64,000 nucleotides of DNA, taken from positions 1 through 64,000 of the forward strand of contig NVUL01000045.1 in assembly GCA_002401885.1 (NCBI GenBank), read 5' to 3'. The stretch is from SAR86 cluster bacterium. GTDB taxonomy: Bacteria; Pseudomonadota; Gammaproteobacteria; Pseudomonadales; Pseudohongiellaceae. The position numbers were made by a program, and so were the translations under genes. Below, piece by piece: positions 37,155-50,665 of this stretch (positions are counted from its first letter, which is position 1; every line of letters begins with the position of its first letter). The notes beneath the pieces are model-generated. The model saw only the letters and a program-made list of their open reading frames with translations. It did not search any database and was not told the DNA's origin.

Positions 37155-38327
37155 ATGCAGCAATTAGACAACCTTGATCTCAAATTCGTAGATTCCATTG
37201 CTGCAATTGGTGAGAAGCAGTGGAACGGTCTCGCCGGCACGGAAAACCCCTTCACGCGATATGAGTTCTTGTGGGCACTAGAGAAGACTGGTTGCACCAC
37301 TCAAGAAACAGGCTGGTCGCCACATCATGTAGCAGTATTTAGTGGATTGGAAGGCGACAAGAAGCGAAAGCTGATTGCTATCATGCCACTGTATAGAAAA
37401 ACAAACTCTTACGGGGAATATGTTTTCGATTGGTCATGGGCGAGTGCCTACCAGAATTACGGTCTAGACTACTATCCCAAGTTTGTCAGCGCGATCCCTT
37501 TCACCCCCAGTCACGGTGCGCGAATATTCACTGATGCATCGGTAAGTCGGCAAGACATAGTCCAATTGATCTACGAGAAGCTAAAGGCGAAGGCGGAATC
37601 TATTAGTGCGTCTTCTTGGCATATACTTTTTCCAACCGAGGAAGAAAACAAACTATTTGAGGCAGCCGGTATTCCCGCTAGAACCGCCTGTCAGTTTCAC
37701 TGGTTCAATAGAGGTTATATAAGCTTCGACGATTTCCTAGCGACGCTAAATTCACGCAAGAGAAAGAATATTAGAAGGGAACGACAGAAGGTCGCCGAGC
37801 AAGGCGCGAGCTTTGAAACAATCGCCGGGATCGATATTACCTCCAAGCATTGGGATACATTCTATCGTTTCTATCAAAGCACCTACATGATGCGTGGAAT
37901 GCAAGGCTATCTGAGCCAGGAGTTCTTCGCTGAGATCGGACGGCATATGCCAGAGCAGCTCTTCATGGTTGCGGCTCTCGATGGAGAGGAGATGATCGCA
38001 GCAGCGCTTTTCTTCAAGAATTCCGAGAAGATTTTCGGAAGATACTGGGGTAGCGCGCGAGACTATCAGTTCCTGCATTTTGAGACCTGTTACTACCAAG
38101 GCCAAGAATATTGTATCCAGCACAAGCTGAAGAGTTTCGATTCGGGTGCCCAGGGCGAGCATAAGATTCAACGCGGCTTCGAACCGATAATAACCTATTC
38201 AAATCACTGGATTGCCAACGAGGGATTTGCTCAAGCGATAAACAACTTTTTGGATGAAGAGCGGGCGCACATCGAGAAATACAAGGCAGAAGCCTCGTCT
38301 TTACTCCCGTTCAAAAAGGGAAATTGA
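37155..38327 (+). CDS. FemAB/GNAT-like protein (COG3146, DUF482 family)
   Basis: 390 residues resembling the peptidogalycan-biosynthesis/GNAT family annotated as DUF482. Blocks seen: NPFTRYEFLWALE near residue 27, the central RKRKNIRRERQKV near 205, and RYWGSARDYQFLHFETCYYQGQEYCI near 295, typical of the family. No signal or membrane segment is visible. The function is not established; an aminoacyl- or acetyl-transfer role is inferred from fold relatives only. It ends 6 bp from the convergent integron integrase stop, so it marks the left edge of the integron. Confidence 0.8.
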   Translation: MQQLDNLDLKFVDSIAAIGEKQWNGLAGTENPFTRYEFLWALEKTGCTTQETGWSPHHVAVFSGLEGDKKRKLIAIMPLYRKTNSYGEYVFDWSWASAYQNYGLDYYPKFVSAIPFTPSHGARIFTDASVSRQDIVQLIYEKLKAKAESISASSWHILFPTEEENKLFEAAGIPARTACQFHWFNRGYISFDDFLATLNSRKRKNIRRERQKVAEQGASFETIAGIDITSKHWDTFYRFYQSTYMMRGMQGYLSQEFFAEIGRHMPEQLFMVAALDGEEMIAAALFFKNSEKIFGRYWGSARDYQFLHFETCYYQGQEYCIQHKLKSFDSGAQGEHKIQRGFEPIITYSNHWIANEGFAQAINNFLDEERAHIEKYKAEASSLLPFKKGN

Positions 38328-38332
38328 TGCAG

Positions 38333-39304
38333 TCAATTAAGGTCATCCAGAGGGCTTGATGCCCCCGAGTAGTGTCTTCCGAGCACGTGTGTGTAAATCT
38401 GCGTTGTCTTTACATCATTGTGACCCAGCAATTCCTGAACAGTCCTGATATCGGACTCGGCGGCCAACATGTGTGTAGCAAATGAGTGATGAAAAGTATG
38501 ACAGGTCACCCGTTTGGTAGTAATGCCAGCTGCTATTGTCGCAATACCTAAAAACTTCCGCACTAGCGAAGGATGTAGATGGTACCTACAAAGTTCGCCA
38601 GTGTACGGATGTGCACAATGTCTCGGTGAAGGAAACAGAAACGCCCACGCTGGTAGACTGTAGGCGCTAGGGTACTTTCTTTGTAATGCTGGGCTCATAG
38701 CAGCTGAAATACCAAGAGCGGCATCTTTTTTGTGGATAGCCATAGCATATTGCATCTGTATCTCAAGCCCAGCGATAGAAGATAAGCCAAGAAGTGTTTG
38801 CCTATCTTTACGCCCCTTGCCATTGCGTACTACAATTGAAGCACGATCGAAGTTTATGTCTTGTAACCTGATACTCAAACATTCTTCCACCCGTAGTCCA
38901 CTCCCATATAGCAGCTCAATGACTAATTTGTTTCTATCAGCAAACTGACGCAGAATAAGTTGTATCTCCGTCTTAGATAAGACTGTTGGTAGATGCCGCT
39001 GCTTACTAGCAAGTTTAAAACCCAGATTACCCACCTTGCGTTTTAGATATTTCTCAAAAAGGTAAACGAGTGAGTTAAGGACTACCTTCTGAGTATTGAC
39101 ACTCACATACCGTTCGGTGGCTAGATAGGTCAGATACTCTTCTATCTTACTAACGTCAACAGTCTCGGGATGCTGCAAATCGCAGAAGTGAATAAACCGC
39201 TTGATCCATAGTAGATAGGTTTTCTCCGTCGCTAAACTATATCCCCGCAATCTCATATTGCCCCGGATCGACTCAATAAATGCGCTCACAATAAACCCCT
39301 CCAA
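38333..39304 (-). CDS. intI: Integron integrase (IntI family) with catalytic Arg to His change
   Basis: Tyrosine recombinase that inserts and excises cassettes at attI and attC. 323 residues. The IntI-specific extra region is present (LQRKYPSAYSLPAWAFLFPS, residues 208-227). Catalytic residues seen: Arg138 (YGSGLRVEE), the box Lys in GKGRKDR near 163-168, His269 (TCHTF), His295 (LLGHND) and nucleophile Tyr304 (IYTHVL). The conserved HxxR motif reads H-T-F-H: residue 272 is His (codon CAT, plus-strand bases 38489-38491) instead of Arg. The ORF is otherwise intact, so this is likely a recent loss of activity or a sequencing error. Confidence 0.93.
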   Translation of the reverse strand: MEGFIVSAFIESIRGNMRLRGYSLATEKTYLLWIKRFIHFCDLQHPETVDVSKIEEYLTYLATERYVSVNTQKVVLNSLVYLFEKYLKRKVGNLGFKLASKQRHLPTVLSKTEIQLILRQFADRNKLVIELLYGSGLRVEECLSIRLQDINFDRASIVVRNGKGRKDRQTLLGLSSIAGLEIQMQYAMAIHKKDAALGISAAMSPALQRKYPSAYSLPAWAFLFPSPRHCAHPYTGELCRYHLHPSLVRKFLGIATIAAGITTKRVTCHTFHHSFATHMLAAESDIRTVQELLGHNDVKTTQIYTHVLGRHYSGASSPLDDLN

Positions 39305-39596
39305 ATTTGGTTAGATGAACCAATTTGTAGTGGAAAAACGCACAAAAAGCACAATTATTCTCGTTTATTCCTGACGGAGTCTCACATGTGAATTTAGGAA
39401 TACCTAAAATAACGAATTATCAAAGGCCTAATAGCACGGATCAAAAGAAACCGAGTGGCGAGAAGCGTGAAACGAGCATACCCATATCAGATTCGGTAAA
39501 GCGAGAACCCTTCTGGAATACCTGTTTTAATTCAGTTAATTACGAGCTAGACTCGGGGGAATGAAAAGGCGAAACGCGCATGCTCCATATACAAAT
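39305..39596. other. Integrase promoter and attI region
   Basis: Non-coding stretch between the divergent integrase and the first cassette; it should hold the integrase promoter, the cassette promoter and the left part of attI. An inverted repeat tttagg/cctaaa lies at 39393-39408. No LexA box of the form CTGT-N8-ACAG was found by eye, and no promoter can be called with confidence. Confidence 0.55.
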
Positions 39597-39603
39597 GTTA
39601 TGT
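39597..39603 (+). other. attI: attI core recombination site
   Basis: The 7-mer gttatgt is the same core that ends the attC sites of this array. It lies at the junction between the integrase-side leader and the first cassette, where attI is expected. The left binding sites of attI could not be delimited by eye. Confidence 0.75.
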
Positions 39604-39654
39604 TCCTCAATACTTTCAGCGTCGTGTGTAAATCTATAAATTGAGAGATTAAGA

Positions 39655-40161
39655 ATGAATTGGGAAGCTATCGGAGCTGTCGGGGAGATACTTGGAGCAA
39701 TTGCCGTTGTTTTGTCTTTAGCGTATCTAGCTATTCAAATCAGGCAATCGAATAGACTAGCCGTGAGAGAAGCTCGAACCAGTCTTTCCGAAATCAACAC
39801 CGCTATACATCAGTCACATCTTGAGACACCCCATATCGCAGAGTTAAAGCTTAAGTTACGTGACAGGCACTGCGAATTATCTGATGTAGAAAACGAGCAA
39901 GCTGAAAGCCTCGCAGCTACATTACAACTTAGTTGGGGTGTAACGGGTTCAGCGCACGACTCAGGTTTACTGCCAGATCATGTGATGGAGATCTATTTGA
40001 ACGCTGTCACATACTGGTTCAGAACTTACCCCGGCCTGGCACCATTTTCAAAAAGAATACTAGAATCTTCAGGAATACGACCAGGTCAGTGGCCTATTTA
40101 TACTCGCGCATGGGAAGAAATTGACAAGCTTGAAACAAATGATGATTCGTCCGGAACATAA
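39655..40161 (+). CDS. Cassette 1: membrane-anchored helical protein of unknown function
   Basis: 168 residues, no family name recognised. An N-terminal hydrophobic helix at residues 5-27 (IGAVGEILGAIAVVLSLAYLA) is followed by QIRQSN and a soluble, helix-rich region. The layout matches four other cassette products here (starting at 40261, 43495, 44960 and 48586): W or E-rich start, membrane helix, Q/E-x-x-Q-x-N turn, LS-x-E-like acidic stretch and aromatic residues near the middle. It is closest to the 48586 protein in the first 35 residues. A ribosome site gagagatta precedes ATG 39655. The stop lies inside the left arm of attC 1. Confidence 0.8.
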   Translation: MNWEAIGAVGEILGAIAVVLSLAYLAIQIRQSNRLAVREARTSLSEINTAIHQSHLETPHIAELKLKLRDRHCELSDVENEQAESLAATLQLSWGVTGSAHDSGLLPDHVMEIYLNAVTYWFRTYPGLAPFSKRILESSGIRPGQWPIYTRAWEEIDKLETNDDSSGT

Positions 40162-40213
40162 CAATAAAATCAAGGAGATTCGCTGCGCGAACTCTTTATT
40201 AAAAGCGTTATGT
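40156..40213 (+). repeat. attC site 1
   Basis: Left core acataac (40156-40162) pairs with right core gttatgt (40207-40213); 58 bp with an internal stem-loop containing cgctgcgcg. Ends cassette 1. Confidence 0.9.
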
Positions 40214-40260
40214 GTCTCGTAGGACTATAGAGAAACTGTAAAGGTAGATAAGATTACTAA

Positions 40261-40707
40261 ATGGATATTGAAAAATTCACACATTGGCTTACTTTGGTGG
40301 CGAATTTCGGCGTAATAGCTGGAGTAGTTTTCTTAGCATATGAACTTCAACAGAATAATGAATTATTAGTTCAAGAGTCTCGATACTCAATGCTTCAGAA
40401 TCAAAAAGATTGGACTCAGTTCATTAACGGAAGCGAAGAAGTTTCAAATCTACTGTATGTTAAAGGCAACCAAGACCTCAGTGATATAGAAAAAGATCGA
40501 AGATTCGGTATCCTTTTAGGCAATATCTTCACATGGCAGTGGGAATGGGAGCAATCGAAGACAGAAATGTTAGGCGGGACAGAATTACCTGTTGAAGCAT
40601 TCCGTGCGCTTTGGCGAAATTTCGACCTTGAACGAGACTGGCCTGAGTTGAGGCTTACATTAAGGTCGGACTTTGTAACGTTTATGGAAAACGAAGTCTC
40701 AAATTAG
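40261..40707 (+). CDS. Cassette 2: membrane-anchored helical protein of unknown function
   Basis: 148 residues. Membrane helix at about residues 9-28 (WLTLVANFGVIAGVVFLAYE), then ELQQNNELL and a helical, Trp-rich region (FTWQWEWEQ near 93) and an F-x-x-F-type ending (FVTFMENEV). It most resembles the cassette 7 product: shared IEKF/TEKIGHW start, ANFGV/ANLGV, W-x-W-E-W/W-x-W-S-W and the FVTFME/FVKFME ending. Function unknown; an N-in anchor with a cytoplasmic or periplasmic sensor-like domain is possible. Confidence 0.8.
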   Translation: MDIEKFTHWLTLVANFGVIAGVVFLAYELQQNNELLVQESRYSMLQNQKDWTQFINGSEEVSNLLYVKGNQDLSDIEKDRRFGILLGNIFTWQWEWEQSKTEMLGGTELPVEAFRALWRNFDLERDWPELRLTLRSDFVTFMENEVSN

Positions 40708-40732
40708 AAGCTGCGGCATATGTGCATCCGAC

Positions 40733-40791
40733 ACATAACAATCAAATCAACAAGGAGGCGCTACGCGCCCCTATTATTCAGGGCGTTATGT
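40733..40791 (+). repeat. attC site 2
   Basis: 59 bp, cores acataac (40733-40739) and gttatgt (40785-40791), with the stem loop ggcgctacgcgcc and the cttattattcaggg-type right arm shared by the array. Confidence 0.9.
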
Positions 40792-40849
40792 GCTTTGTAG
40801 CATTGGACTCCAGAAAAAGAATAAGAATACATATTCATAAGGATCCATC

Positions 40850-41563
40850 ATGAATACTTCTGCAGGAAAACCGATAGATTCCAAAAAAGCTACTTTTTAT
40901 GCCGCCACATGCGCCTTAGTAGTACTAATAGTTTCAGCTGGATTCGGACCGGCATACATCGGCGCAATGATTGAAGGACTCGTAACTCCTTTTATTCTCC
41001 ATTTTCATGCAACAGTTTTTGTTGGCTGGTTAGCCCTGTTTACTGTACAAGCACTATTGCCTGCATTTGGTCGCGTTGACTTACACCGTAAATTGGGAAA
41101 ATTCGGAATAGGTTACGCAATATTTTTGATAATAGTTGGCTTAGCAACTACAGTAAATCGGGTTGCTTTCCATTTCAATGATGGTCAGGAAGAGTTTGCG
41201 AGAGCATTCCTGATTGCCCCATTGTCTGACATGATAGTCTTTCCAATCTTTTTTGCCGCCGCAATCGCATACAGACATAAACCAGAAATCCATAAACGAC
41301 TGATGTTGGTAGCCACTGTGATGCTAACGATAGCCGCTGTAGCTAGAATGTCATTTATACCTTCAAACTATATAGGGCTTGTATCTGTTTGGTTATCTCC
41401 GATCTATCTAGCAATGATTTATGACTATTATCGGAAAAAAGAAGTACATCCAGCGTATGTAATCGGGCTGGTGACCCTAGCAATAGTGCCTTTTCGAGAC
41501 AGCGTCGCCACTACTGATGGATGGCAAGGTTTCGCATCATGGTTTATAACTCTAATTACTTAG
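40850..41563 (+). CDS. Cassette 3: multi-pass membrane protein
   Basis: 237 residues with about six hydrophobic helices (residues about 15-40, 45-68, 82-105, 122-142, 153-172, 177-193, 198-215). The block LHFHATVFVGWLALFTVQALLPAFGRVDLHRKLGKFG (His-rich, near residue 45-85) is reminiscent of heme- or quinone-linked membrane families such as DUF2306-like proteins, but I cannot assign it. A ribosome site ataaggat precedes ATG 40850. Cassette-borne; the promoter is presumably upstream in the array. Confidence 0.75.
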   Translation: MNTSAGKPIDSKKATFYAATCALVVLIVSAGFGPAYIGAMIEGLVTPFILHFHATVFVGWLALFTVQALLPAFGRVDLHRKLGKFGIGYAIFLIIVGLATTVNRVAFHFNDGQEEFARAFLIAPLSDMIVFPIFFAAAIAYRHKPEIHKRLMLVATVMLTIAAVARMSFIPSNYIGLVSVWLSPIYLAMIYDYYRKKEVHPAYVIGLVTLAIVPFRDSVATTDGWQGFASWFITLIT

Positions 41564-41606
41564 TGAATTACGACAAGCTGGAAAGCAAATTTATGAGCCG
41601 GCCAGA

Positions 41607-41665
41607 ACATAACAATTAAATCAACAAGGAGGCGCTACGTGCCCCTATTATTCAAAGCGTTATGT
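41607..41665 (+). repeat. attC site 3
   Basis: 59 bp, cores acataac (41607-41613) and gttatgt (41659-41665). Right arm cttattattcaaagc differs slightly from site 2. Confidence 0.9.
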
Positions 41666-41709
41666 GTTTCGAACACTGAAGGTATTGTAGATGAGAGCTC
41701 TTTAGTCAA

Positions 41710-42384
41710 ATGGACTTATTGAAAAATATCGAAGAATCCATGTTAGCTATACCTAAAGGCTCCATTCATCTTAGAGACGACAGGATCAATAAGGAATGGG
41801 CAGCATCAATTGCCTCATTTTCAGTGTGTAAATATCTAGTCACACAAGACATATATCAATATGCTGCGAAAGCACAACCATCGATCTTTAAAGGAAACAG
41901 GAAACCAGTTGAGAGTGTTTCATGGCATGAAGCTGTGCATTTTTGCAATCAGCTTTCTCACTTGGCCGGTTACACTAGCTATTACTTAGTAACTGAGGAT
42001 ACTGCTGTTGTGGAATGTGACCCAACTGCAAACGGATATAGGCTTCTCACAGACGCTGAGTGGGAATATGCATGCAAAGCAGGCGACAACAAACCACGCT
42101 ATGGAGAAATTGAAAATATCGCCTGGTATGAAGACAATTCAGGTGGTGAAACACATGATGTAGGTGGTAAGTTTCCTAACAAATGGGGCATTTACGATAT
42201 GCTGGGCAACGTTTGGGAATGGTGCTGGGATGTATATGATGCAGAAACCTATGGCCCGTATAGGATTTTTCGTGGCGGCGGATGGTGTGATGCAAAGCGT
42301 GGTTGCCTCGCTACTAACCGTCGTCGAAGTCACCCAACTTTCCAAATTGAAGATTTGGGATTCCGGGTGGCGAGGTCAATATGA
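41710..42384 (+). CDS. Cassette 4: SUMF1/FGE-sulfatase-domain protein
   Basis: 224 residues with the formylglycine-generating-enzyme-like (SUMF1, C-type lectin) fold: VSWHEAVHFCNQLS near residue 75, YRLLTDAEWEYACKAGD near 113, GIYDMLGNVWEWCWD near 161, and the C-terminal FRGGGWCDAKRGC...DLGFRVAR. True aerobic FGEs have two active Cys spaced C-x4-C in a GGSxLC context. Here the pattern is GGGWC-x5-C, so formylglycine synthesis is doubtful and another SUMF1 activity is more likely. No signal peptide is seen. Stop at 42384, just before attC 4. Confidence 0.85.
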   Translation: MDLLKNIEESMLAIPKGSIHLRDDRINKEWAASIASFSVCKYLVTQDIYQYAAKAQPSIFKGNRKPVESVSWHEAVHFCNQLSHLAGYTSYYLVTEDTAVVECDPTANGYRLLTDAEWEYACKAGDNKPRYGEIENIAWYEDNSGGETHDVGGKFPNKWGIYDMLGNVWEWCWDVYDAETYGPYRIFRGGGWCDAKRGCLATNRRRSHPTFQIEDLGFRVARSI

Positions 42385-42400
42385 TTCTAGATATGCCAAC

Positions 42401-42459
42401 ACATAGCCATCAAATCAAAAAGGAAGCGCTACGCGCTCCTATTATTAAGGGCGTTATGT
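42401..42459 (+). repeat. attC site 4
   Basis: 59 bp, right core gttatgt (42453-42459). The left core reads acatagc, one base off the usual acataac. Confidence 0.85.
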
Positions 42460-42475
42460 GCATAGGTGAATTCTA

Positions 42476-42895
42476 ATGAAATGGTATTGGCAGCTATATT
42501 CCCTACTTTTGTTGCTTTTAGGGTTTGGTCAAATGATTAGGAAACTAATTAGTGACACTGGAGGCTTCTCATCAAGGTACGCCGCGGCTCTGGTTGCAGT
42601 CATAATAGTCCTGGCGTTGGTTGCCAAATCGAAAGAGTTGCATCTCGGGAAAGTTTGGATGTGGAAATCGCTATTTCTTATTCTGGGAATTGGTAGCGTA
42701 GCTATGGCACTGTTTGGTTTCTATCTTGGGTTTACCGGCGTATATTTTCCAGCCAGTTTATTATGCGGTGCAGCTATAGTTCTAATGCCTGCTCTTCAGG
42801 AACTCTATGTGTATTCTTACGAATCTCCTGACATTTGGGCTTTAGCACATAACAATCAAATCAAAAGCGATGCCGCAAGCGGCACGCCTTATTAA
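42476..42895 (+). CDS. Cassette 5: four-helix membrane protein whose end is encoded by attC
   Basis: 139 residues with about four hydrophobic stretches (residues about 4-21, 32-50, 60-80 and 88-105). No family recognised. The last residues HNNQIKSDAASGTPY are translated from the left and middle of attC 5, ending 11 bp before its right core. Such read-through C-termini occur for cassette ORFs and argue for recent capture of the site. Ribosome site aggtga upstream of ATG 42476. Confidence 0.72.
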   Translation: MKWYWQLYSLLLLLLGFGQMIRKLISDTGGFSSRYAAALVAVIIVLALVAKSKELHLGKVWMWKSLFLILGIGSVAMALFGFYLGFTGVYFPASLLCGAAIVLMPALQELYVYSYESPDIWALAHNNQIKSDAASGTPY

Positions 42896-42906
42896 GGGCG
42901 TTATGC
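42847..42906 (+). repeat. attC site 5
   Basis: 60 bp, left core acataac (42847-42853), right core gttatgc (42900-42906), so the outer pair is imperfect. Central loop with gccgcaagcggc hairpin. The preceding ORF reads into it. Confidence 0.88.
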
Positions 42907-42966
42907 GCACAATGAATTTGGATAGAACAGTCTAAGTAAAGCTTAGCGATGTTACTGGAAGGTAAA

Positions 42967-43347
42967 ATGAGCAAAACTAGAAACTATATTACCTGGGCAT
43001 TGACCATCTTGTTGGCAATTGCATTTTTAGGTGCCGGATATGCAAAAGCTACAGGCCAAGAAGCCATGGTCCAATCATTTTATGCATTTGGTCTTCCCGA
43101 TTGGTTTCGCATTACAATTGGAGTCATAGAAATCATTGGAGGCGCTCTACTAGTAATTCCTGCGCTAACCGGAATGTCTAGCTTTGGCCTTTCAATTATT
43201 ATGATTGGCGCTATTTTATCTCATACTCTGCATGATCCTATTACTGCGGCAATTCCAGCATTTGTATTCTTTATCATCCTTACATATATTTATTTGACTC
43301 GTAGAGATGTTATACCTAAAGCGCTTCAAAAATATCTAATGGGTTAA
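42967..43347 (+). CDS. Cassette 6: DoxX-like membrane protein
   Basis: 126 residues from ATG 42967, chosen because a strong ribosome site ggaagg lies seven bases upstream; an upstream frame start at 42949 adds six residues. About four membrane helices. The pattern LAIAFLGAGYAKATG near residue 14 and GVIEIIGGALLVIPALTG near residue 50 matches DoxX/DoxX-like proteins (small quinone-linked or redox membrane proteins). Its exact role is unknown. Confidence 0.82.
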   Translation: MSKTRNYITWALTILLAIAFLGAGYAKATGQEAMVQSFYAFGLPDWFRITIGVIEIIGGALLVIPALTGMSSFGLSIIMIGAILSHTLHDPITAAIPAFVFFIILTYIYLTRRDVIPKALQKYLMG

Positions 43348-43381
43348 TTTAAAAGAACCGTGGGCTCATTGTGCTGCAGGC

Positions 43382-43442
43382 ACATAACAATCAAATCAAA
43401 AAGGACGCGCGCGCTGCTCGCCTATTATTAAGGGCGTTATGT
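43382..43442 (+). repeat. attC site 6
   Basis: 61 bp, cores acataac (43382-43388) and gttatgt (43436-43442), loop with gcgcgcgctgctcgc. Confidence 0.9.
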
Positions 43443-43494
43443 GTTTAGCTTCTTTTTAAGATCGCATTAGAGGTCTAGGAATTATTTATCTAAA

Positions 43495-43932
43495 ATGAAT
43501 ACAGAAAAAATTGGTCACTGGATTTCAGTAATAGCCAATCTAGGAGTCCTAGTTGGGATTATCTTCTTGATAGTTGAAATCAACCAGACAAATTCTTTGA
43601 TGCAATCTGAGGAAAGATACAATCGTGTTTTGCTTGCCCTTGCTGGGCCTGATTTAGTAGTTGAAAATCTGCATCTAGCAACCGCGCTGAGAAAGAGAAA
43701 TTCTGAAGAAGAACTATCCGCAGATGAATCACAAATACTAGACGCCTACTGGACGGGCAACTTCATATCATGGCAATGGTCATGGGAGGAACTTGATTCA
43801 AGCGACTTACCTGTTGCGTTATTTAGCAACTCATTAAGGAAAGGCGATGTGCGGGCGAGCTGGGAAAGACAAAGGGCGTTTCTTAAACCAGGTTTTGTGA
43901 AGTTTATGGAAGACAGGCTAGTCGAACAGTAA
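43495..43932 (+). CDS. Cassette 7: membrane-anchored helical protein of unknown function
   Basis: 145 residues, same apparent family as cassette 2: membrane helix at residues 8-27 (WISVIANLGVLVGIIFLIVE), then INQTNSL, an acidic LS-ADE stretch near residue 74, FISWQWSWEEL near 90 and FVKFMEDRL at the end. The two products align over most of their length without large gaps. Function unknown. The stop lies 8 bp before attC 7. Confidence 0.82.
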   Translation: MNTEKIGHWISVIANLGVLVGIIFLIVEINQTNSLMQSEERYNRVLLALAGPDLVVENLHLATALRKRNSEEELSADESQILDAYWTGNFISWQWSWEELDSSDLPVALFSNSLRKGDVRASWERQRAFLKPGFVKFMEDRLVEQ

Positions 43933-43939
43933 TGCCGAT

Positions 43940-43998
43940 ACATAACAATCAAATCTAAAAGGAGGCACTACGTGCCCCTGTTATTCAGGGCGTTATGT
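43940..43998 (+). repeat. attC site 7
   Basis: 59 bp, cores acataac (43940-43946) and gttatgt (43992-43998), loop ggcactacgtgcc. Confidence 0.9.
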
Positions 43999-44137
43999 AG
44001 ACAACACCTTTCTAGCACTGTCCAAAAGAACATGGTCTTGATGATCAATAATTAGGAGAAACACTATTTAGTTCGTATTCAAACACAGGCAGAATGGTCA
44101 TACCTAAATTTTCACAGAAACTTTGGGGCTAATAATA

Positions 44138-44311
44138 ATGAAAAACAAAGATCTCGTGTTTTATGCTATTTCAGCATTTTCTCTAATTCTATTAGTGCTC
44201 CTCCCAATTGCTATTTCTAACGGGTTCTCACCAGGAGAGTACTTTCCTGGAATGTCGCTCCTTCAAGAATGGATAAAGTCTGGAGAACAGTTTGCCTATA
44301 GTAAAAATTAG
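44138..44311 (+). CDS. Cassette 8: small single-pass membrane protein
   Basis: 57 residues from ATG 44138 (MKNKDLVFYAISAF). One hydrophobic helix at about residues 6-26, then a short hydrophilic tail (EWIKSGEQFAYSKN). No family recognised. The gene fits the cassette between attC 7 and 8 but fills little of it; about 140 bp upstream is non-coding. A weaker TTG start at 44123 is possible. Confidence 0.55.
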   Translation: MKNKDLVFYAISAFSLILLVLLPIAISNGFSPGEYFPGMSLLQEWIKSGEQFAYSKN

Positions 44312-44374
44312 GGCAACGCCAATTAACTATTTGAGCAGGCACGCTCCAAATCGAAAAACTGGTAGCCTCAGGGC

Positions 44375-44433
44375 ACATAACAATCAAATCAAATAGGAGG
44401 CGCTACACACCCCTATTATTCAAAGCGTTATGT
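44375..44433 (+). repeat. attC site 8
   Basis: 59 bp, cores acataac (44375-44381) and gttatgt (44427-44433). The central loop ggcgctacacaccc is less symmetric than in its neighbours. Confidence 0.88.
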
Positions 44434-44458
44434 GCTAACGCGATAAACGGAGAATTTC

Positions 44459-44908
44459 GTGGTAATTGTCTGGCTAGCTCTGGGAGCGATTCTCACATTG
44501 CCGCTTCTGCTTATTGCGAAGCGAATCAATAAAACATTATGGCCTCACATATTTGGGGTGAGCTTGCTTGTCGCCGCTCTGATTTATATCGGTTTTGCTC
44601 TCGCTTGGGGCACCACTGAGTGGCTTTTCGTCGAGATACTTGGCGTGGCTATTTATGGCTTGTTTTACATGTTGGCCGTCAGACACACAATCGTTTGGCT
44701 TTCCGCTGGGTGGCTTTTACATCCTATATGGGATGTGGCTCTGCATTTATTGGGGCCGGGAACTCATATAGTCCCTTTTTGGTATGCAGTCGCTTGTGTG
44801 TCATTTGATTTAGTTATCGCATCTTTTCTCGTAATTGAAGCGAGACATATCAAAAACGCACATAACAATAAATTCAATAGAGGACTCGGCTTGCGCCGAG
44901 CCCATTAA
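44459..44908 (+). CDS. Cassette 9: multi-pass membrane protein, DUF6010-like
   Basis: 149 residues with about five membrane segments. The blocks FALAWGTTEWLFVEILGVAIYG near residue 43 and SAGWLLHPIWDVALHLLGPGT near residue 80 resemble the DUF6010 family; the assignment is by memory of the pattern and is tentative. GTG start at 44459 with ribosome site ggagaa. The last 15 residues are translated from attC 9, as in cassette 5. Confidence 0.72.
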   Translation: MVIVWLALGAILTLPLLLIAKRINKTLWPHIFGVSLLVAALIYIGFALAWGTTEWLFVEILGVAIYGLFYMLAVRHTIVWLSAGWLLHPIWDVALHLLGPGTHIVPFWYAVACVSFDLVIASFLVIEARHIKNAHNNKFNRGLGLRRAH

Positions 44909-44922
44909 TAGGGGCGTTATGT
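44860..44922 (+). repeat. attC site 9
   Basis: 63 bp, cores acataac (44860-44866) and gttatgt (44916-44922), with a distinct loop stem ctcggcttgcgccgag. Confidence 0.9.
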
Positions 44923-44959
44923 GTCTAATCAATGCAAGTGAGAACCAAAAGTTACTAAT

Positions 44960-45469
44960 ATGAAATCAAGTTGGAAAGATTGGCTAACAATTGCATCGAA
45001 TTTGGCTATTCTTATGGGAATATTACTGGTCTTTTGGGAGCTACAACAAAATCAGACACTAGCTCGCTTGCAACTTACAAGTGAAGGATTTGCTTTACGT
45101 ACTGAATTGACAAGCAATCTTATAGGTGAATCTCCAGAATTGGTTTTGGCAAAGGCGTGCCTTAAACCGGATGAGCTAACAACTGAAGACAGGATTGTGC
45201 TCGCTCAAATATTTCAAAGTCGACTAAGTGCTGCCTTGATGTACAGAGATATTGAAAGTGTGTCCGGCCTAGGGTTCGATATTGAGAATAGTTTCGTGCC
45301 GGTGTTTCAAACAATGTTTAACTACGAATATGGCCGAGAATTCTATCAGCGGATGAAAGACTACAGTAACGGACGCTCCGCAGACCTGTTTGCTATCGGA
45401 GATTCAGTACTGGAAAGCGGTCGGGTATCAGACTGTGCGTTAGGAAGTGCTGTACCCGGAGGATTTTGA
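44960..45469 (+). CDS. Cassette 10: membrane-anchored helical protein of unknown function
   Basis: 169 residues of the same apparent family: Trp-rich start (SSWKDWLTIASNLAI), membrane helix at about 10-27, ELQQNQTLARL, an LTTEDRI stretch near residue 74 matching the acidic stretch of the others, and aromatic helices afterwards. Ribosome-site match is weak. The stop lies 10 bp before attC 10. Confidence 0.8.
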   Translation: MKSSWKDWLTIASNLAILMGILLVFWELQQNQTLARLQLTSEGFALRTELTSNLIGESPELVLAKACLKPDELTTEDRIVLAQIFQSRLSAALMYRDIESVSGLGFDIENSFVPVFQTMFNYEYGREFYQRMKDYSNGRSADLFAIGDSVLESGRVSDCALGSAVPGGF

Positions 45470-45478
45470 GATGACGAT

Positions 45479-45537
45479 ACATAACAATCAAACCAAGGAG
45501 ATGCGCGTAGCGCATCTCCTTGATTTGATTGTTATGT
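45479..45537 (+). repeat. attC site 10, almost perfectly palindromic
   Basis: 59 bp with cores acataac (45479-45485) and gttatgt (45531-45537). Unlike all the others, the two 28-base arms pair at 27 of 28 positions around a 3-base loop (gta); the single mismatch is at 45493. The right arm is therefore the reverse complement of a typical left attC arm, not a usual right arm. The extrahelical bases that give attC its polarity are missing. Confidence 0.88.
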
Positions 45538-45782
45538 TCCTAAATGAACATTAGTGAAAATACACGTTCAACTACAATTTTTTTTGGCAGTGTTCATCGC
45601 CCCGCCGGTTCTCTTTGGGCTACCAATCACCTGAAAGCTATGAAAAGCTGCGTGCATAGAGTGTCCACGAAAGTGGTACAAGATCAGTCGGTAAGTAATG
45701 GACGGATTTCAGTTGTAGTTGAAAAGAAGCAATGAAAATCATATGGTAATTCTACTAATTTGACTACAGACAGGAAGTTACA
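45538..45782. other. Segment between attC 10 and the enolase-family gene
   Basis: 245 bp. It contains a weak 63-codon ORF (45544-45735) without recognisable features or ribosome site. No attC-like left half follows. It forms the left part of a segment that does not look like a normal cassette. Confidence 0.4.
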
Positions 45783-46997
45783 ATGCTGAGACGAGATTTC
45801 TTAACCAAATTGCCCGGCCTTGTGACGATGCCATTGATGCTGCCGCAGGCTGCGAAGGCGGCGCAGGCGGCGCGCCTAAAGATCACTGATGTCCGTTTGA
45901 TCAAGATCAGGCTGATCGAAGACAAGGGCATCCTTGCCCGACGCGTCGATACCCCCCGTGGAGGGCTACACGTTCAGATTGGCAATTTCACCGTGACTGA
46001 AGTGCACACGGATCAAGGTCTAGTGGGCATCGGCCCCGGGATCCCTCCAGAGAACATCGAGTATGTGAAACAACTGCTCGTTGGCAAAGACCCTTTCGAG
46101 ATCAATCAGCATGCAGCGGCGCTGTACCGCCCGCAGCGCAGATGGGGCGCCTCGGTAGAGATCGCGCTTTGGGATCTGCTGGGTAAAGCAACGGATTTAC
46201 CGCTCTACAAACTCTGGGGCGGTTCGCGCGACCGAGTCCTGCCATATGCGGCCATGTGGGGCATCGGCACTGTAGAAGACCGGGTAGAAATCGCCATCGG
46301 GCTCAAAGAGGACGGCTGGCGCGCTATCAAACTGCGCTCGGGGTTCAGGACTCTAGAGGAAGACGTGCGCGTCGTGGAGTTGGTTCGGGAAGCAGTGGGC
46401 GATGATTTCCACATCCTTTGCGACGGTAACAAAGCGCCCGGCAACGCAGACGCCTTGGGCGAGGATCCGACGCTCTGGAACTTTAAGCGTGCCTATGACA
46501 CGGCGATGGAGTACCAGCGACTCAATGTATATTGGTTCGAGGAGCCGCTGCCCCGCTACGACTACGAGCGGTTGGCGGAGCTCAACCGGCTCGTCGCTAT
46601 GCCGATGGCAGGCGGCGAGTCAAACTGGGGCATCCATGAGTTCAGATGGCTTCTTGAGCAGGGATGTTTCGACGTCCTCATGCCGGAGATAGGCGATATA
46701 GGGCCCCTAATGTCCCGTACTGTCGGGACCCTCGCGGCGGCGTACAACAGACAAGTCTCGCCGCACTCGGCGCCGTTTGAACGGCGATTAGTCAATATCT
46801 GCGGAATCCACCTTATCGCATCCATGCCAAACGCCCCGATAACAGAGTTCATCCACGAACCGCCGCACGCGGATATCTTCGAGGGCTGGCAGGTATTCGA
46901 GAACCCGCCCGTCTTAGAAAAGGACGGCTCCATTAAAGTGCCTCAGGGCCCGGGCCTCGGGGTTACGTTCAGGGCGGATCTGATCGAAGAATTCTGA
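45783..46997 (+). CDS. Mandelate racemase/muconate lactonizing-type enolase-superfamily enzyme with Tat signal
   Basis: 404 residues. The N-terminus LRRDFLTKLPGL with a following hydrophobic stretch looks like a Tat signal, so the mature protein is probably periplasmic. The barrel carries the expected residues: Lys183 (AIKLRS), Asp214 (CDGNK), Glu253/254 (WFEEPL), Glu279 (GGES) and His328 (SPHS). These are the metal ligands and acid/base residues of the superfamily, and a sugar-acid dehydratase-type reaction is likely, but the substrate is unknown. Its sequence is clearly GC-richer than the neighbouring cassettes, and no full attC follows, suggesting a separate insertion into the array. Confidence 0.88.
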   Translation: MLRRDFLTKLPGLVTMPLMLPQAAKAAQAARLKITDVRLIKIRLIEDKGILARRVDTPRGGLHVQIGNFTVTEVHTDQGLVGIGPGIPPENIEYVKQLLVGKDPFEINQHAAALYRPQRRWGASVEIALWDLLGKATDLPLYKLWGGSRDRVLPYAAMWGIGTVEDRVEIAIGLKEDGWRAIKLRSGFRTLEEDVRVVELVREAVGDDFHILCDGNKAPGNADALGEDPTLWNFKRAYDTAMEYQRLNVYWFEEPLPRYDYERLAELNRLVAMPMAGGESNWGIHEFRWLLEQGCFDVLMPEIGDIGPLMSRTVGTLAAAYNRQVSPHSAPFERRLVNICGIHLIASMPNAPITEFIHEPPHADIFEGWQVFENPPVLEKDGSIKVPQGPGLGVTFRADLIEEF

Positions 46998-47320
46998 GCG
47001 AATGACAGGACACCGCAGGACCGGCGCAGCGAGTGTACTGTCCTTACTGCGACTCAAAGTTAGCGTGGAAGCAGAAAATAAGTCGCCGGATATTGAGCAG
47101 ACAGTGGTGAAAAAAGGGAAAAGCCTAATAAGAAATTGTAACCAAATTTTGCGGTCGTTATACATGGAAAATCTACTTACGAGTAGATTGCCCAATTAAT
47201 TGATATTGAGGGTACTGTTAAGTTAACTCGGCTCAGGCGATAGCTGCGCCATGAAACCAACAAAATCAATATACAAACGCCATCGATTTCCTCCTAAAAT
47301 TATTCTAGCGGAATTCAGGC
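46998..47320. other. Non-coding gap after the enolase-family gene
   Basis: 323 bp. An 8-base perfect hairpin aatctact/agtagatt lies at 47170-47189 without a T-run. A 65-codon frame at 47002-47199 has no supporting features. This gap leads into a truncated attC. Confidence 0.45.
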
Positions 47321-47346
47321 TGCGTCTATTATTAAGGGCGTTATGT
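47321..47346 (+). repeat. attC remnant 11 (right half only)
   Basis: The stretch ending ctattattaagggc plus core gttatgt (47340-47346) equals the right arm of sites 4 and 6. The left arm (acataac...caaatc) is absent upstream. The enolase-bearing segment therefore lacks a functional attC. Confidence 0.8.
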
Positions 47347-47404
47347 GTTTCGAAGCGTCGGCTTTTGACCGAAAGCGGATTCATCAATAATTGGAGGCCT
47401 TCCA

Positions 47405-48352
47405 ATGTATGTGCGTAACCTATCGATCTGCCTGTTTATAATTTCATGCAATGCTCCTCTTCTTGCACAGCAAGAATCACCGTATGAAGCTCCTCGAACG
47501 CCACATGGACAACCCGATTTAGAAGGGGTTTGGGCCACTCATTTCGCCACGATGATGGAAAGACCGGATGGTGTCGAGAGTTTGGCTGTAACTGAAAGCG
47601 AGGCGCATACTATTGCTGCCGATTTGCTCGCTGTTATACCCCACAATGAAGACCCCCAGTTTGAATATGATGGCGTCAACCAGCTAGCCCTGGTGGCAGG
47701 GGAGTATCGTACTTCCATTATTGTCAATCCTGAACATGGCAAGCTACCCTATAAAGATTCAGCGTTGCAGCAGGTTGGATACACAGCAACTCGCTATTTG
47801 ACAGAGTTTGATCACCCGGAACAACGAGGATTGATGGAACGTTGTCTCCAATCATTTGGATTCCCTCCCATCCAGGTTATACCGATAATTAATCCTTATC
47901 AGATTGTACAAACCAGAGATCAATTGTTTTTGTACACCGAGGGCCCGGTAGGCATTCGAATCATTCATCTTAATAGCCAAAGAAACCAACAAGCACCAGC
48001 TTCTCACGAAGGTTACTCAACGGGATATTGGGAGGGTGATACTCTGGTGGTGGAAACTTCAAATTTTCGTGAAGACCACCCCATTCGATCGGGCTTTGGC
48101 ACACCAATGCTGATCACTCCAAATACCGAAATTGAAGAAAGGTTCACTCGCCTGTCCGATACTGAGCTCAACTACTTTTTTACCGTGACAGACGATGAGC
48201 TTTACACTCAACCATGGTCCGGCGAATTTTCACTGTACGCGAATGAAGGCCCTATATACGAATATGCCTGTCACGAAGGGAATTACAGTTTGCCTAGTAT
48301 TTTGCGAGGAGGTCAGATGCAGGCAGAAGAGCAAGCAGACAGGTTGAATTGA
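47405..48352 (+). CDS. Cassette 12: secreted protein, paralogue of the chromosomal protein at 50751
   Basis: 315 residues with an N-terminal signal peptide (LSICLFIISCNAPLLA, cut about residue 20). Conserved blocks: GQPDLEGVW, GEYRTSIIVNPEHGKLP near residue 98, NPYQIVQTRDQ, YWEGDTLVVETSNF near 208 and YEYACHEGNYSL near 287. The same blocks recur in the gene at 50751-51794. The family is widespread in environmental bacteria; I know no function for it. ATG 47405 follows a strong ribosome site ttggaggcc. Confidence 0.82.
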   Translation: MYVRNLSICLFIISCNAPLLAQQESPYEAPRTPHGQPDLEGVWATHFATMMERPDGVESLAVTESEAHTIAADLLAVIPHNEDPQFEYDGVNQLALVAGEYRTSIIVNPEHGKLPYKDSALQQVGYTATRYLTEFDHPEQRGLMERCLQSFGFPPIQVIPIINPYQIVQTRDQLFLYTEGPVGIRIIHLNSQRNQQAPASHEGYSTGYWEGDTLVVETSNFREDHPIRSGFGTPMLITPNTEIEERFTRLSDTELNYFFTVTDDELYTQPWSGEFSLYANEGPIYEYACHEGNYSLPSILRGGQMQAEEQADRLN

Positions 48353-48412
48353 TAGCAAAGTCGCCAAGGAAGGTCCGCTATTGGCAAGGAGTAATTTTGA
48401 AGTACGACCAAC

Positions 48413-48470
48413 ACATAACAATCAAATCAAAAGGGAGGCGCGAGCCCCCCTATATATTCAAGCGTTATGT
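48413..48470 (+). repeat. attC site 12
   Basis: 58 bp, cores acataac (48413-48419) and gttatgt (48464-48470); the loop ggaggcgcgagccccc is altered. Confidence 0.88.
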
Positions 48471-48585
48471 GTTTTTAGTGTCAGCTTCCGGTTAAACACG
48501 GGCGCATAGTTTTAGGCAGGATGGGAAATCGAGACCCGTCACATTCTCGAGAAGAATTCTAAGTAAATTTGGGAAACAGAAGTAT

Positions 48586-49071
48586 ATGACTATTGCCGAG
48601 TTGGGTTCGTTAGGAGAGCTTATTGGTTCTATTGCGGTAATTTTTACACTAATCTATTTGGCGTCACAAGTCCGACAAGGAAATGTGGCCAGCCTTGTGG
48701 AAAGTAATCAGGCAATTAACAAAAAGTACTCTGATTTCCTAAAAGCCCTATATACAAACGAAGTGGCTTTTGATGTTTGGTCACGGGGTAAGAAATCATA
48801 CGAGGCGCTTACAGTTGAGGAAGCTACAAAGTTTCAATTAATTATGTATGATGCCTTTGGTAACTGGCATGAACAATGGTATCAAGTTGAATGTGGTGTG
48901 GCGGATGATACGCAGTTCTATCGTTTACTGGCTGGAATTCGAACCGAACTAAGAAGTCTAGGCGTTCAAGAAGTCTGGAATATTTTTGAGAAATACAAAA
49001 TGTTTGACGATAAGTATATTGAATTTGTGCGAGAACAAATTGAGTGGATAAACGCTGATCGCGAAACGTAA
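48586..49071 (+). CDS. Cassette 13: membrane-anchored helical protein of unknown function
   Basis: 161 residues, same apparent family. The start IAELGSLGELIGSIAVIFTLIYLASQVRQGN closely matches the cassette 1 product (GAVGEILGAIAVVLSLAYLAIQIRQSN), so these two form a subgroup. A long acidic, aromatic region with NWHEQWYQVE near residue 92 and an EKYKMFDDKYIEFV stretch near 144 follows. Weak ribosome site ggaaacagaag. Confidence 0.8.
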   Translation: MTIAELGSLGELIGSIAVIFTLIYLASQVRQGNVASLVESNQAINKKYSDFLKALYTNEVAFDVWSRGKKSYEALTVEEATKFQLIMYDAFGNWHEQWYQVECGVADDTQFYRLLAGIRTELRSLGVQEVWNIFEKYKMFDDKYIEFVREQIEWINADRET

Positions 49072-49129
49072 AATTCCAGTTATTGGCCGAAATTGTCCTA
49101 TAGCACAGAGTTACTCGATTGCAGCCAAC

Positions 49130-49187
49130 ACATAACAATCAAACCAAGGAGATGCGCTACGCGCACTCTTTATTAGAAGCGTTATCT
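49130..49187 (+). repeat. attC site 13
   Basis: 58 bp, left core acataac (49130-49136), right core gttatct (49181-49187; one base off). Its left arm is identical to that of site 10. Confidence 0.85.
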
Positions 49188-49212
49188 GCACTTTGTACGG
49201 GCGTATTAGGAA

Positions 49213-49611
49213 ATGATAGAAATTACAAGAATTAATCACGTAGGACTGCGAGTCACAAATTTAGAAATTACGAGATCATTCTATGAAAGTCTTGGGTTTG
49301 AGTTCTTGGTTGGTCCAGTTGGGCCAGAACCCGTAGCAATAATGGAACATCCGTCAGGGGTCAATATTAACTTCATTCTGAACGCAAATGATCCGGAAAA
49401 ACTCAATTGGCTGATGGATGTACCAGAAAAGCATACGGGATACACCCACATTGCACTAGAGGTCGTTAACCTGGATCATGTGCATTCTCAATTAATTGAC
49501 CTTGGATACGAGATAACCGGAGGGCCTATGACTTTGCCTAATGGAGCTTCATTCCTATTTGTCAGAGATCCAGATGACAATGTAATCGAATTTCATAGGC
49601 CCGCGTCTTGA
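49213..49611 (+). CDS. Cassette 14: VOC/glyoxalase-superfamily protein
   Basis: 132 residues with the paired beta-alpha-beta-beta-beta units of the vicinal-oxygen-chelate fold: NHVGLRVTNLEITRSFYESLGF (residues 8-29), YTHIALEVVNLDHV near 77 and the end FVRDPDDNVIEFHRP. Likely metal ligands are His9, His79 and Glu127 of these blocks. Substrate unknown. Ribosome site taggaa upstream of ATG 49213. Confidence 0.85.
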   Translation: MIEITRINHVGLRVTNLEITRSFYESLGFEFLVGPVGPEPVAIMEHPSGVNINFILNANDPEKLNWLMDVPEKHTGYTHIALEVVNLDHVHSQLIDLGYEITGGPMTLPNGASFLFVRDPDDNVIEFHRPAS

Positions 49612-49617
49612 ACCGGC

Positions 49618-49682
49618 AGATAACGATCAAATCAACAAAGCTAAACCGCGGCGTGGTTTAGCTATTATTCACAGCGATCTGT
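49618..49682 (+). repeat. attC site 14, degenerate right core
   Basis: Left core agataac (49618-49624), strong inner stem gctaaacc/ggtttagc, right core gatctgt (49676-49682), where the essential GTT triplet is lost. Recombination here should be impaired. Confidence 0.75.
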
Positions 49683-49725
49683 GCATTTTGTTACTGGAAA
49701 ACTTAGAGAAAATGGGTTCGATTAC

Positions 49726-50040
49726 ATGCGAATAGACAGATTTCACAAGATCGTCATCCTCATTTTTTGCTTAGCATTAGCGGGGCCTGAACTTGGAATT
49801 GGGCTTGAATTGATAGTTCTGGTTGATGCATTTGGCATCGAGCTCTTGTTAATCTCTCTTACTGCGTCACTTTGGAGCTATTGGTATTTTGTCAAAGCTA
49901 AGCTCGAAGAATTTGATTCGTACTTTTTCACATCACCATTAAGAGATATATTGAAGTGCCCTGCATTGCTTGCACATGCAATTCCAGGCTCCATGGGTTT
50001 GTTCATGTTTGTGTTAGGCCTTACAGTAATTTCCATTTAG
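49726..50040 (+). CDS. Cassette 15: small membrane protein
   Basis: 104 residues from ATG 49726; a GTG at 49681 would start inside attC 14 and seems less likely. Three hydrophobic segments (residues about 8-25, 30-53 and 77-102). No family recognised. The stop codon lies about 20 bp before a degenerate attC. Confidence 0.6.
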   Translation: MRIDRFHKIVILIFCLALAGPELGIGLELIVLVDAFGIELLLISLTASLWSYWYFVKAKLEEFDSYFFTSPLRDILKCPALLAHAIPGSMGLFMFVLGLTVISI

Positions 50041-50062
50041 GAGTGCATCCGAATTATTGTGG

Positions 50063-50112
50063 CGCGTAATAATCAAATCAATAAGGAAGCGCTACGGGCT
50101 CCTATAATTGCT
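50063..50112 (+). repeat. attC remnant 15, right end of the array
   Basis: The left arm (taataatcaaatcaataagg) and the loop gcgctacgggct are recognisable, but the left core is altered and the right core gttatgt is gone. It marks the eroded right end of the integron. Confidence 0.65.
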
Positions 50113-50140
50113 CTACCAATAAAACAAGAAGCAACCTAAG

Positions 50141-50665
50141 ATGACCGATACATTCGATTTCAAACCCTTCCTAAAAGGCCCCCGTGTAATTGTGCGCCCC
50201 ATTCAAGAAGATGATTGGGAAGGCCTGTTTGCGGCGGCAGCAAATCCAAAAGTTTGGGAACATCACCCCGTGACCGATCGTTATAAAGAGGAGGTATTTC
50301 ATGCCTTTTTCGATGATGCGATCGCTAGCGGCAGCGCGTTTACGTTTGTTGATAGCGAGACAGGCAGAATAATCGGGTCTAGCCGCTTCAACGGCCTGGA
50401 TGAAGAGTTGAGCGAGATTGAAATAGGCTGGACGTTTCTAGATCATGATTTCTGGGGCGGTAGCTACAATGCGGAGATCAAGAAGCTCATGTTGGACCAT
50501 GCTTTCAAGTTCGTAAACACGGTCGTATTTTGGGTAGGTGATACGAATATTGTTTCACTGCGCGCGATGGAGAAGATTGGCGGCGTGAAGCGCGACGAGG
50601 TGATAGGGAGGGTTCTAAATGGCATTAACTATCCGCATATTATTTACGAGATTCGAAAGGCCTAG
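50141..50665 (+). CDS. GNAT-family N-acetyltransferase (RimJ/RimL-like)
   Basis: 174 residues. Start RVIVRPIQEDDWEGLFAAAANPKVWEHHP, then SGSAFTFVDSETGRIIGSSRF near residue 65 and the acetyl-CoA region TFLDHDFWGGSYNAEIKKLMLDHAF near 108, ending in DTNIVSLRAMEKIGG near 140, typical of RimL-like acetyltransferases. The acceptor is unknown. The codon and base make-up is like the chromosome, and no attC follows, so it is probably not a cassette. Confidence 0.87.
   Translation: MTDTFDFKPFLKGPRVIVRPIQEDDWEGLFAAAANPKVWEHHPVTDRYKEEVFHAFFDDAIASGSAFTFVDSETGRIIGSSRFNGLDEELSEIEIGWTFLDHDFWGGSYNAEIKKLMLDHAFKFVNTVVFWVGDTNIVSLRAMEKIGGVKRDEVIGRVLNGINYPHIIYEIRKA

Follow-up and report, generated by a model that had tools for sequence, protein, structure and literature searches.

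Can an integron integrase that carries a replacement in its catalytic site still move cassettes and, if it cannot, how recently was that ability lost? This question is raised by intI, an integrase gene in the window (the whole stretch of DNA analysed, 64,000 nucleotides of a SAR86 cluster bacterium contig). A sequence-only reading of the same DNA had proposed that the enzyme carries His in place of its second catalytic arginine (Arg-II), that the gene was inactivated recently, and that the array is therefore frozen or dependent on another integrase in trans. The features of the locus are collected in Table 1.

Table 1. Features of the integron locus in the window (residues numbered from the GTG start; "others" are the 69 other aligned frames)
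Feature	Position	Strand	Remark
FemAB-like gene, left flank	37155..38327	+	PF04339; beside intI in five other genomes
intI, integron integrase gene	38333..39289	-	318 codons from GTG; 323 from TTG at 39304
Tyr299, catalytic nucleophile	38393..38395	-	present; Tyr in 69/69 others
Codon 278, Glu replacing a nearly invariant Gly	38456..38458	-	Gly in 67/69 others
Codon 267 (272 in the earlier count), His replacing catalytic Arg-II	38489..38491	-	CAT on the coding strand
His264, first residue of HxxR	38498..38500	-	present; His in 67/69 others
Arg133 (Arg-I)	38891..38893	-	present; Arg in 69/69 others
Intergenic region with attI	39290..39604	+	four genus genomes aligned
attI core, CATATACAAATGTTATGTT	39586-39604	+	almost invariant across four genus genomes
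Cassette genes	39655..50040	+	ORFs between attC sites; 5 of 8 scanned without Pfam match
Ten attC sites	40148..45545	+	starts 40148, 40725, 41599, 42393, 42839, 43374, 43932, 44367, 44852, 45471
Five further attC-like sites	47248..50124	+	starts 47248, 48405, 49122, 49610, 50056
GNAT acetyltransferase gene, right flank	50141..50665	+	PF13302; array border

The integrase and its altered active site

The protein scores 344.3 bits with TIGR02249 (cut-off 265) and has Pfam matches to Phage_integrase and to the SAM-like N-terminal domain. Its best solved relative is 2a3v (molecule name IntI4; phmmer E 4.7e-70), to which it aligns in one stretch over residues 2-315. That alignment runs unbroken through the IntI-specific additional domain (ALQRKYP versus ALKEKYP in 2a3v; PMC9229058 names an ALER-type motif for this domain), and Arg235 of the CRYH stretch is present, as in all 69 other aligned frames. 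Structure prediction gave an integron integrase fold, with 2a3v as the top PDB match (TM 0.65; structure alignment over 13 rows). Mean pLDDT is 84 and pTM 0.66, so that no exact geometry of the active site can be read from the model. The GTG at 39289 is likelier than the TTG to be the start, because the closest relative, the enzyme of genome G441 from the same genus (80% identity), begins with the identical VSAFIES. Residue 267 from this GTG is 272 from the TTG five codons upstream, which the earlier count had used. Around the gene, promoter-like sites were as frequent as expected (3 versus 3.3), terminator-like sites numbered 3, located within the gene, versus 1.3 expected, and no LexA-type box (pattern CTG-N10-CAG) was found between 38200 and 40300.

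Direct reading of the codon confirmed the substitution: the motif is H-T-F-H-H-S-F-A where 2a3v has H-T-L-R-H-S-F-A at the aligned position. The other catalytic residues that the sequence-only reading had given as intact (Arg138, His269, His295 and Tyr304, here 133, 264, 290 and 299) are indeed in place. His290, the last catalytic histidine, is conserved in 69 of 69 other aligned frames, and the catalytic lysine, kept here as Lys158, in 67 of 69. Within the set Arg-I, Lys, His, Arg-II, His, Tyr, Arg-II alone is thus replaced. A further change, absent from the earlier account, lies 11 residues downstream of His267, where Gly278 has become Glu. Among the sequences compared, Glu at this position recurs in one other, L010, whose frame is interrupted upstream. 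The single-base route from CGT to CAT suggested earlier is possible, but among 10 relatives CGT is carried only by a distant row from the same order; the remaining relatives have CGA (six, G441 included), AGG or AGA (two) or CGC (G439).

The departure at this position exceeds chance: Arg-II is Arg in all 69 other related open frames, among them the 80%-identical enzyme of G441 at the same chromosomal locus. The set comprises distinct open frames from the loci analysed that are 250 residues or longer and match the window protein at phmmer E 1e-40 or better. It leaves out interrupted copies (L010 and L012, for example) and is biased towards intact genes because its 30 class-level loci are the best-scoring ones from 138 genomes past the cut-off (138 of the 369 class-level genomes). 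At the genus level, some integrase match occurs in 35 of 84 genomes searched; 12 copies, the window's included, are open and full-length or nearly so, and the other 11 all read HxxR. A clade of integrases sharing the His is therefore ruled out by both comparisons. A less strict count covering 154 loci gives Arg in 83 of 86 distinct motif stretches; His stands in the other three, which are the window and two non-recombinase frames. In Shewanella, the corresponding arginine (R280) was reported to be conserved throughout a set of 182 integrases (PMC9229058); according to PMC4499138, conservation is weaker at Arg-II than at Arg-I.

The pattern HxxHHxFAT was matched in 8 of 390 order-level, 2 of 369 class-level and 11 of 398 phylum-level genomes, the window being counted in each of these overlapping sets. 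Inspected by eye, only one other match with HxxH is recombinase-like. This is L060, from genome G368: a separate gene that resembles tyrosine recombinases, carries in-frame stops and reads HSLHH in place of HxxR; it is an independent instance of His at the Arg-II place, in a dead gene. L061-L065, L067 and L138-L146 were judged, also by eye, to be other proteins or chance frames. A degenerate HTFHHSFAT pattern gave no match in viral contigs, and no natural integron integrase with Arg-II changed to His was found among titles and abstract openings of the open-access literature, which is a weak negative.

The locus and the age of the change

intI lies at a fixed chromosomal locus inherited within the genus, as in a sedentary chromosomal integron. 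The order regulator gene, FemAB-like gene, intI is common to G441, G439, G437, G459 and G452, with the G452 regulator matched in pieces. Beyond the regulator, G441, G439 and G437 have a gene that we take from its sequence to be glmS; the stretches of G459 and G452 give no view of this position. The GNAT gene at 50141, which also stands to the right of the locus in G459 and G452, is probably no cassette.

These genomes differ in the state of the integrase. G441, G439 and G437 have open frames with HxxR at the locus, and the window has the missense integrase with a full array. In G459 the integrase is interrupted by stops and frame breaks, still reads HTFR and lies next to three attC matches. 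G452 retains a remnant reading HTCR, with no attC match beside it at E 0.1 or below. Some twenty integrase copies of the genus, G459 and G452 included, are partial or interrupted; some of them stop at contig edges, and therefore not all are proven pseudogenes. Integrase decay is an ordinary process, into which the window fits as an early, missense stage. Such a same-site series within one genus (open, missense, stops, remnant without array) offers material for a study of integron decay.

attI adjoins intI, between that gene and the first cassette, and the cassettes run divergently from intI. Crossover is likely to occur at the GTT at 39597-39599 of the attI core. At least 15 attC-like sites lie on the plus strand of the contig at this locus, at least 14 of them with E 0.012 or better under a covariance model built from 11 of the window's own sites, which are therefore among the matches. 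The weaker ones are the degenerate site at 47248-47354 (E 6) and those at 49610 (E 0.009) and 50056 (E 0.012). The 11 aligned sites are homogeneous (mean column identity 75%), and most attC sites of the array appear intact, as does the attI core.

To judge the age of the change, branch lengths and conserved columns were considered. In a protein tree of 11 sequences the window branch (0.158) equals that of its sister (0.158). Across 10 relatives (309 ungapped of 357 columns), 98 columns are invariant, and the window departs from them at three, Val123, His267 and Glu278. For other members of the genus the corresponding number is 0 to 5, and for the same-order row it is 21. Three departures are thus an ordinary number, and what is striking is only that the catalytic site is among the places changed. 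Since the frame has neither stop nor frameshift and the branch is not longer than its sister's, any loss of constraint must be recent. In simulations of neutral drift, the probability of having no stop and at most three invariant residues changed was 0.066 after 25 substitutions and 0.027 after 30, and the window's nucleotide branch spans about 298 (0.321 x 927). If release from constraint amounts to neutral drift, the released span would therefore, as a rough bound, not exceed some 10% of the branch. A codon model was also tried and set aside: dN/dS on the window branch was 0.034 or 0.057 depending on the model, but fixing omega at 1 lowers the log likelihood by just 0.52 units, and with saturated synonymous sites the estimate carries no information.

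Probable loss of activity and its alternatives

Arg-II makes contact with the scissile phosphate through a non-bridging oxygen (PMC4499138). Replacing it can be severe in related enzymes: IntI1 R280E is described as inactive in vivo and in vitro (PMC2117344), and Cre R292A as virtually nonreactive on normal DNA (PMC2747268). Milder outcomes are described in PMC4499138, where Cre R292K is reasonably well tolerated and the R173H mutant, altered at Arg-I instead, still recombines to a limited extent; another basic residue can therefore sometimes serve. Loss of activity in the window enzyme is thus likely rather than proven, since Glu or Ala at Arg-II leaves a dead or nearly dead enzyme but Lys in Cre is tolerated.

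We consider it probable that the window holds a sedentary chromosomal integron whose integrase lost catalysis very recently through the change of Arg-II to His, probably together with or after the change of Gly278 to Glu. The earlier suggestion of recent inactivation gains support from the unshared catalytic loss, the open frame, the ordinary branch, an attI core that is intact and attC sites that mostly are, and the broken relatives at the same locus. Without Arg-II the scissile phosphate would be improperly activated, and strand cleavage by Tyr299 would fail or nearly fail. Cassettes at this locus would no longer be excised or captured by the window integrase, and the array, which we infer to be frozen, would now be passively inherited and bound to decay like those of the relatives.

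It is unlikely that His267 keeps partial phosphate activation, leaving a slow integrase and an array nearly but not fully frozen. The two Cre mutants with milder effects, the conservation of the frame and of most of the protein, and the description of eighteen Cre mutants, R292H among them, as every one reduced in recombination (PMC4457865) agree with such a weakened enzyme; on the other hand, none of the 69 other frames carries His at Arg-II, the second change at Gly278 points to relaxed constraint, and among the 309 ungapped columns the window has no basic residue that is unique to it relative to the 10 relatives. That a natural integrase should work slowly or under special conditions with His for Arg-II, as a built-in brake on shuffling that leaves the array usable, seems to us improbable. 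About equally doubtful is a consensus error or minority allele, with most cells carrying Arg. The window sequence is a single consensus from a draft genome of 134 contigs, and two near-invariant positions are changed within 33 bases, as a local error might produce; against this, frameshift and stop are both absent, the site is interior to a contig 64 kb or more in length, and integrases of this genus have often decayed.

A catalytically dead protein might also be retained for binding attI or folded attC, as a repressor or brake on the array. The otherwise conserved sequence and a predicted fold closest to 2a3v would suit this role, which is nevertheless very improbable: recent loss accounts for the conservation equally well, His occurs here in no other genome examined, and IntI1 R280E is reported to bind neither attI nor attC (PMC2117344).

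Recent loss through a missense change thus remains the preferred reading, and it can be set beside known cases. The window integrase resembles the IntI family (TIGR02249; 2a3v) in its full-length model match, predicted fold, additional-domain region, attI and attC sites and divergent gene order, and differs from it in having His for Arg-II and Glu for Gly278. In Xanthomonas, integrase activity was lost at an ancestral fixed locus, the integrase being lost in most strains while arrays remain (PMC12444791); the lesions described for that case are truncation, frameshift, stop, deletion or absence, whereas the window has an active-site missense change. The class 2 gene intI2 (PMC2426708) is likewise a natural integrase inactivated by one small change in an otherwise whole system. 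Its lesion is an internal stop codon, unlike the catalytic missense of the window, whose integron is chromosomal and not class 2. Active class 1 integrases impose a fitness cost in Acinetobacter baylyi and are lost by frameshift (PMC3510236).

The unusual part is the missense route, which is invisible to surveys of stops and frameshifts. When intI genes were surveyed for stops, frameshifts and size, close to a third proved to be pseudogenes (PMC2426708). The criteria given there (stop, frameshift, 20% size change) do not apply to intI of the window, whose frame is open over 318-323 codons; they would score it as functional despite its probable silencing by one catalytic substitution. Because a missense change escapes such criteria, integrase inactivation may be undercounted.

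Other integrons of the genome and the cassettes

As for dependence on another integrase in trans, a second integrase does exist in the same genome (G000), but it is broken. It belongs to a second, degenerating integron on contig 39 (L059 1-6100) with its own attC sites, keeps HTFR, and is a clear pseudogene interrupted by frame changes and stops; it is the only other integrase above the cut-off in an assembly that is 84% complete. Runs of attC were also observed on contigs 86, 89 and 19, which have no integrase match; 150 of 1058 candidates were scored in this whole-genome search, so that the counts are lower bounds.

PADLOC gave no match for 10 cassette proteins. Five cassettes of the window (39655, 40261, 43495, 44960, 48586) and three of L059 (1471, 2658, 3852) encode short, weakly similar proteins, the similarity being mostly N-terminal (E-values for a 14-protein set); the five window members have no NCBIfam match, and the three scanned have no Pfam match. 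The last of the ten attC sites (start 45471) is peculiar in that its part at 45479-45537 consists of two left arms in inverted order. It forms a near-perfect palindrome, with 54 of 59 positions self-reverse-complementary, compared with 22-40 of 58-63 in 11 other attC sites, and the attC model matches it on both strands. It is followed by an enolase-superfamily gene at 45783-46997 (PF13378, PF02746) and then by the degenerate attC at 47248-47354. The G+C content of this gene is 58%, versus 38-47% in 13 other cassette genes.
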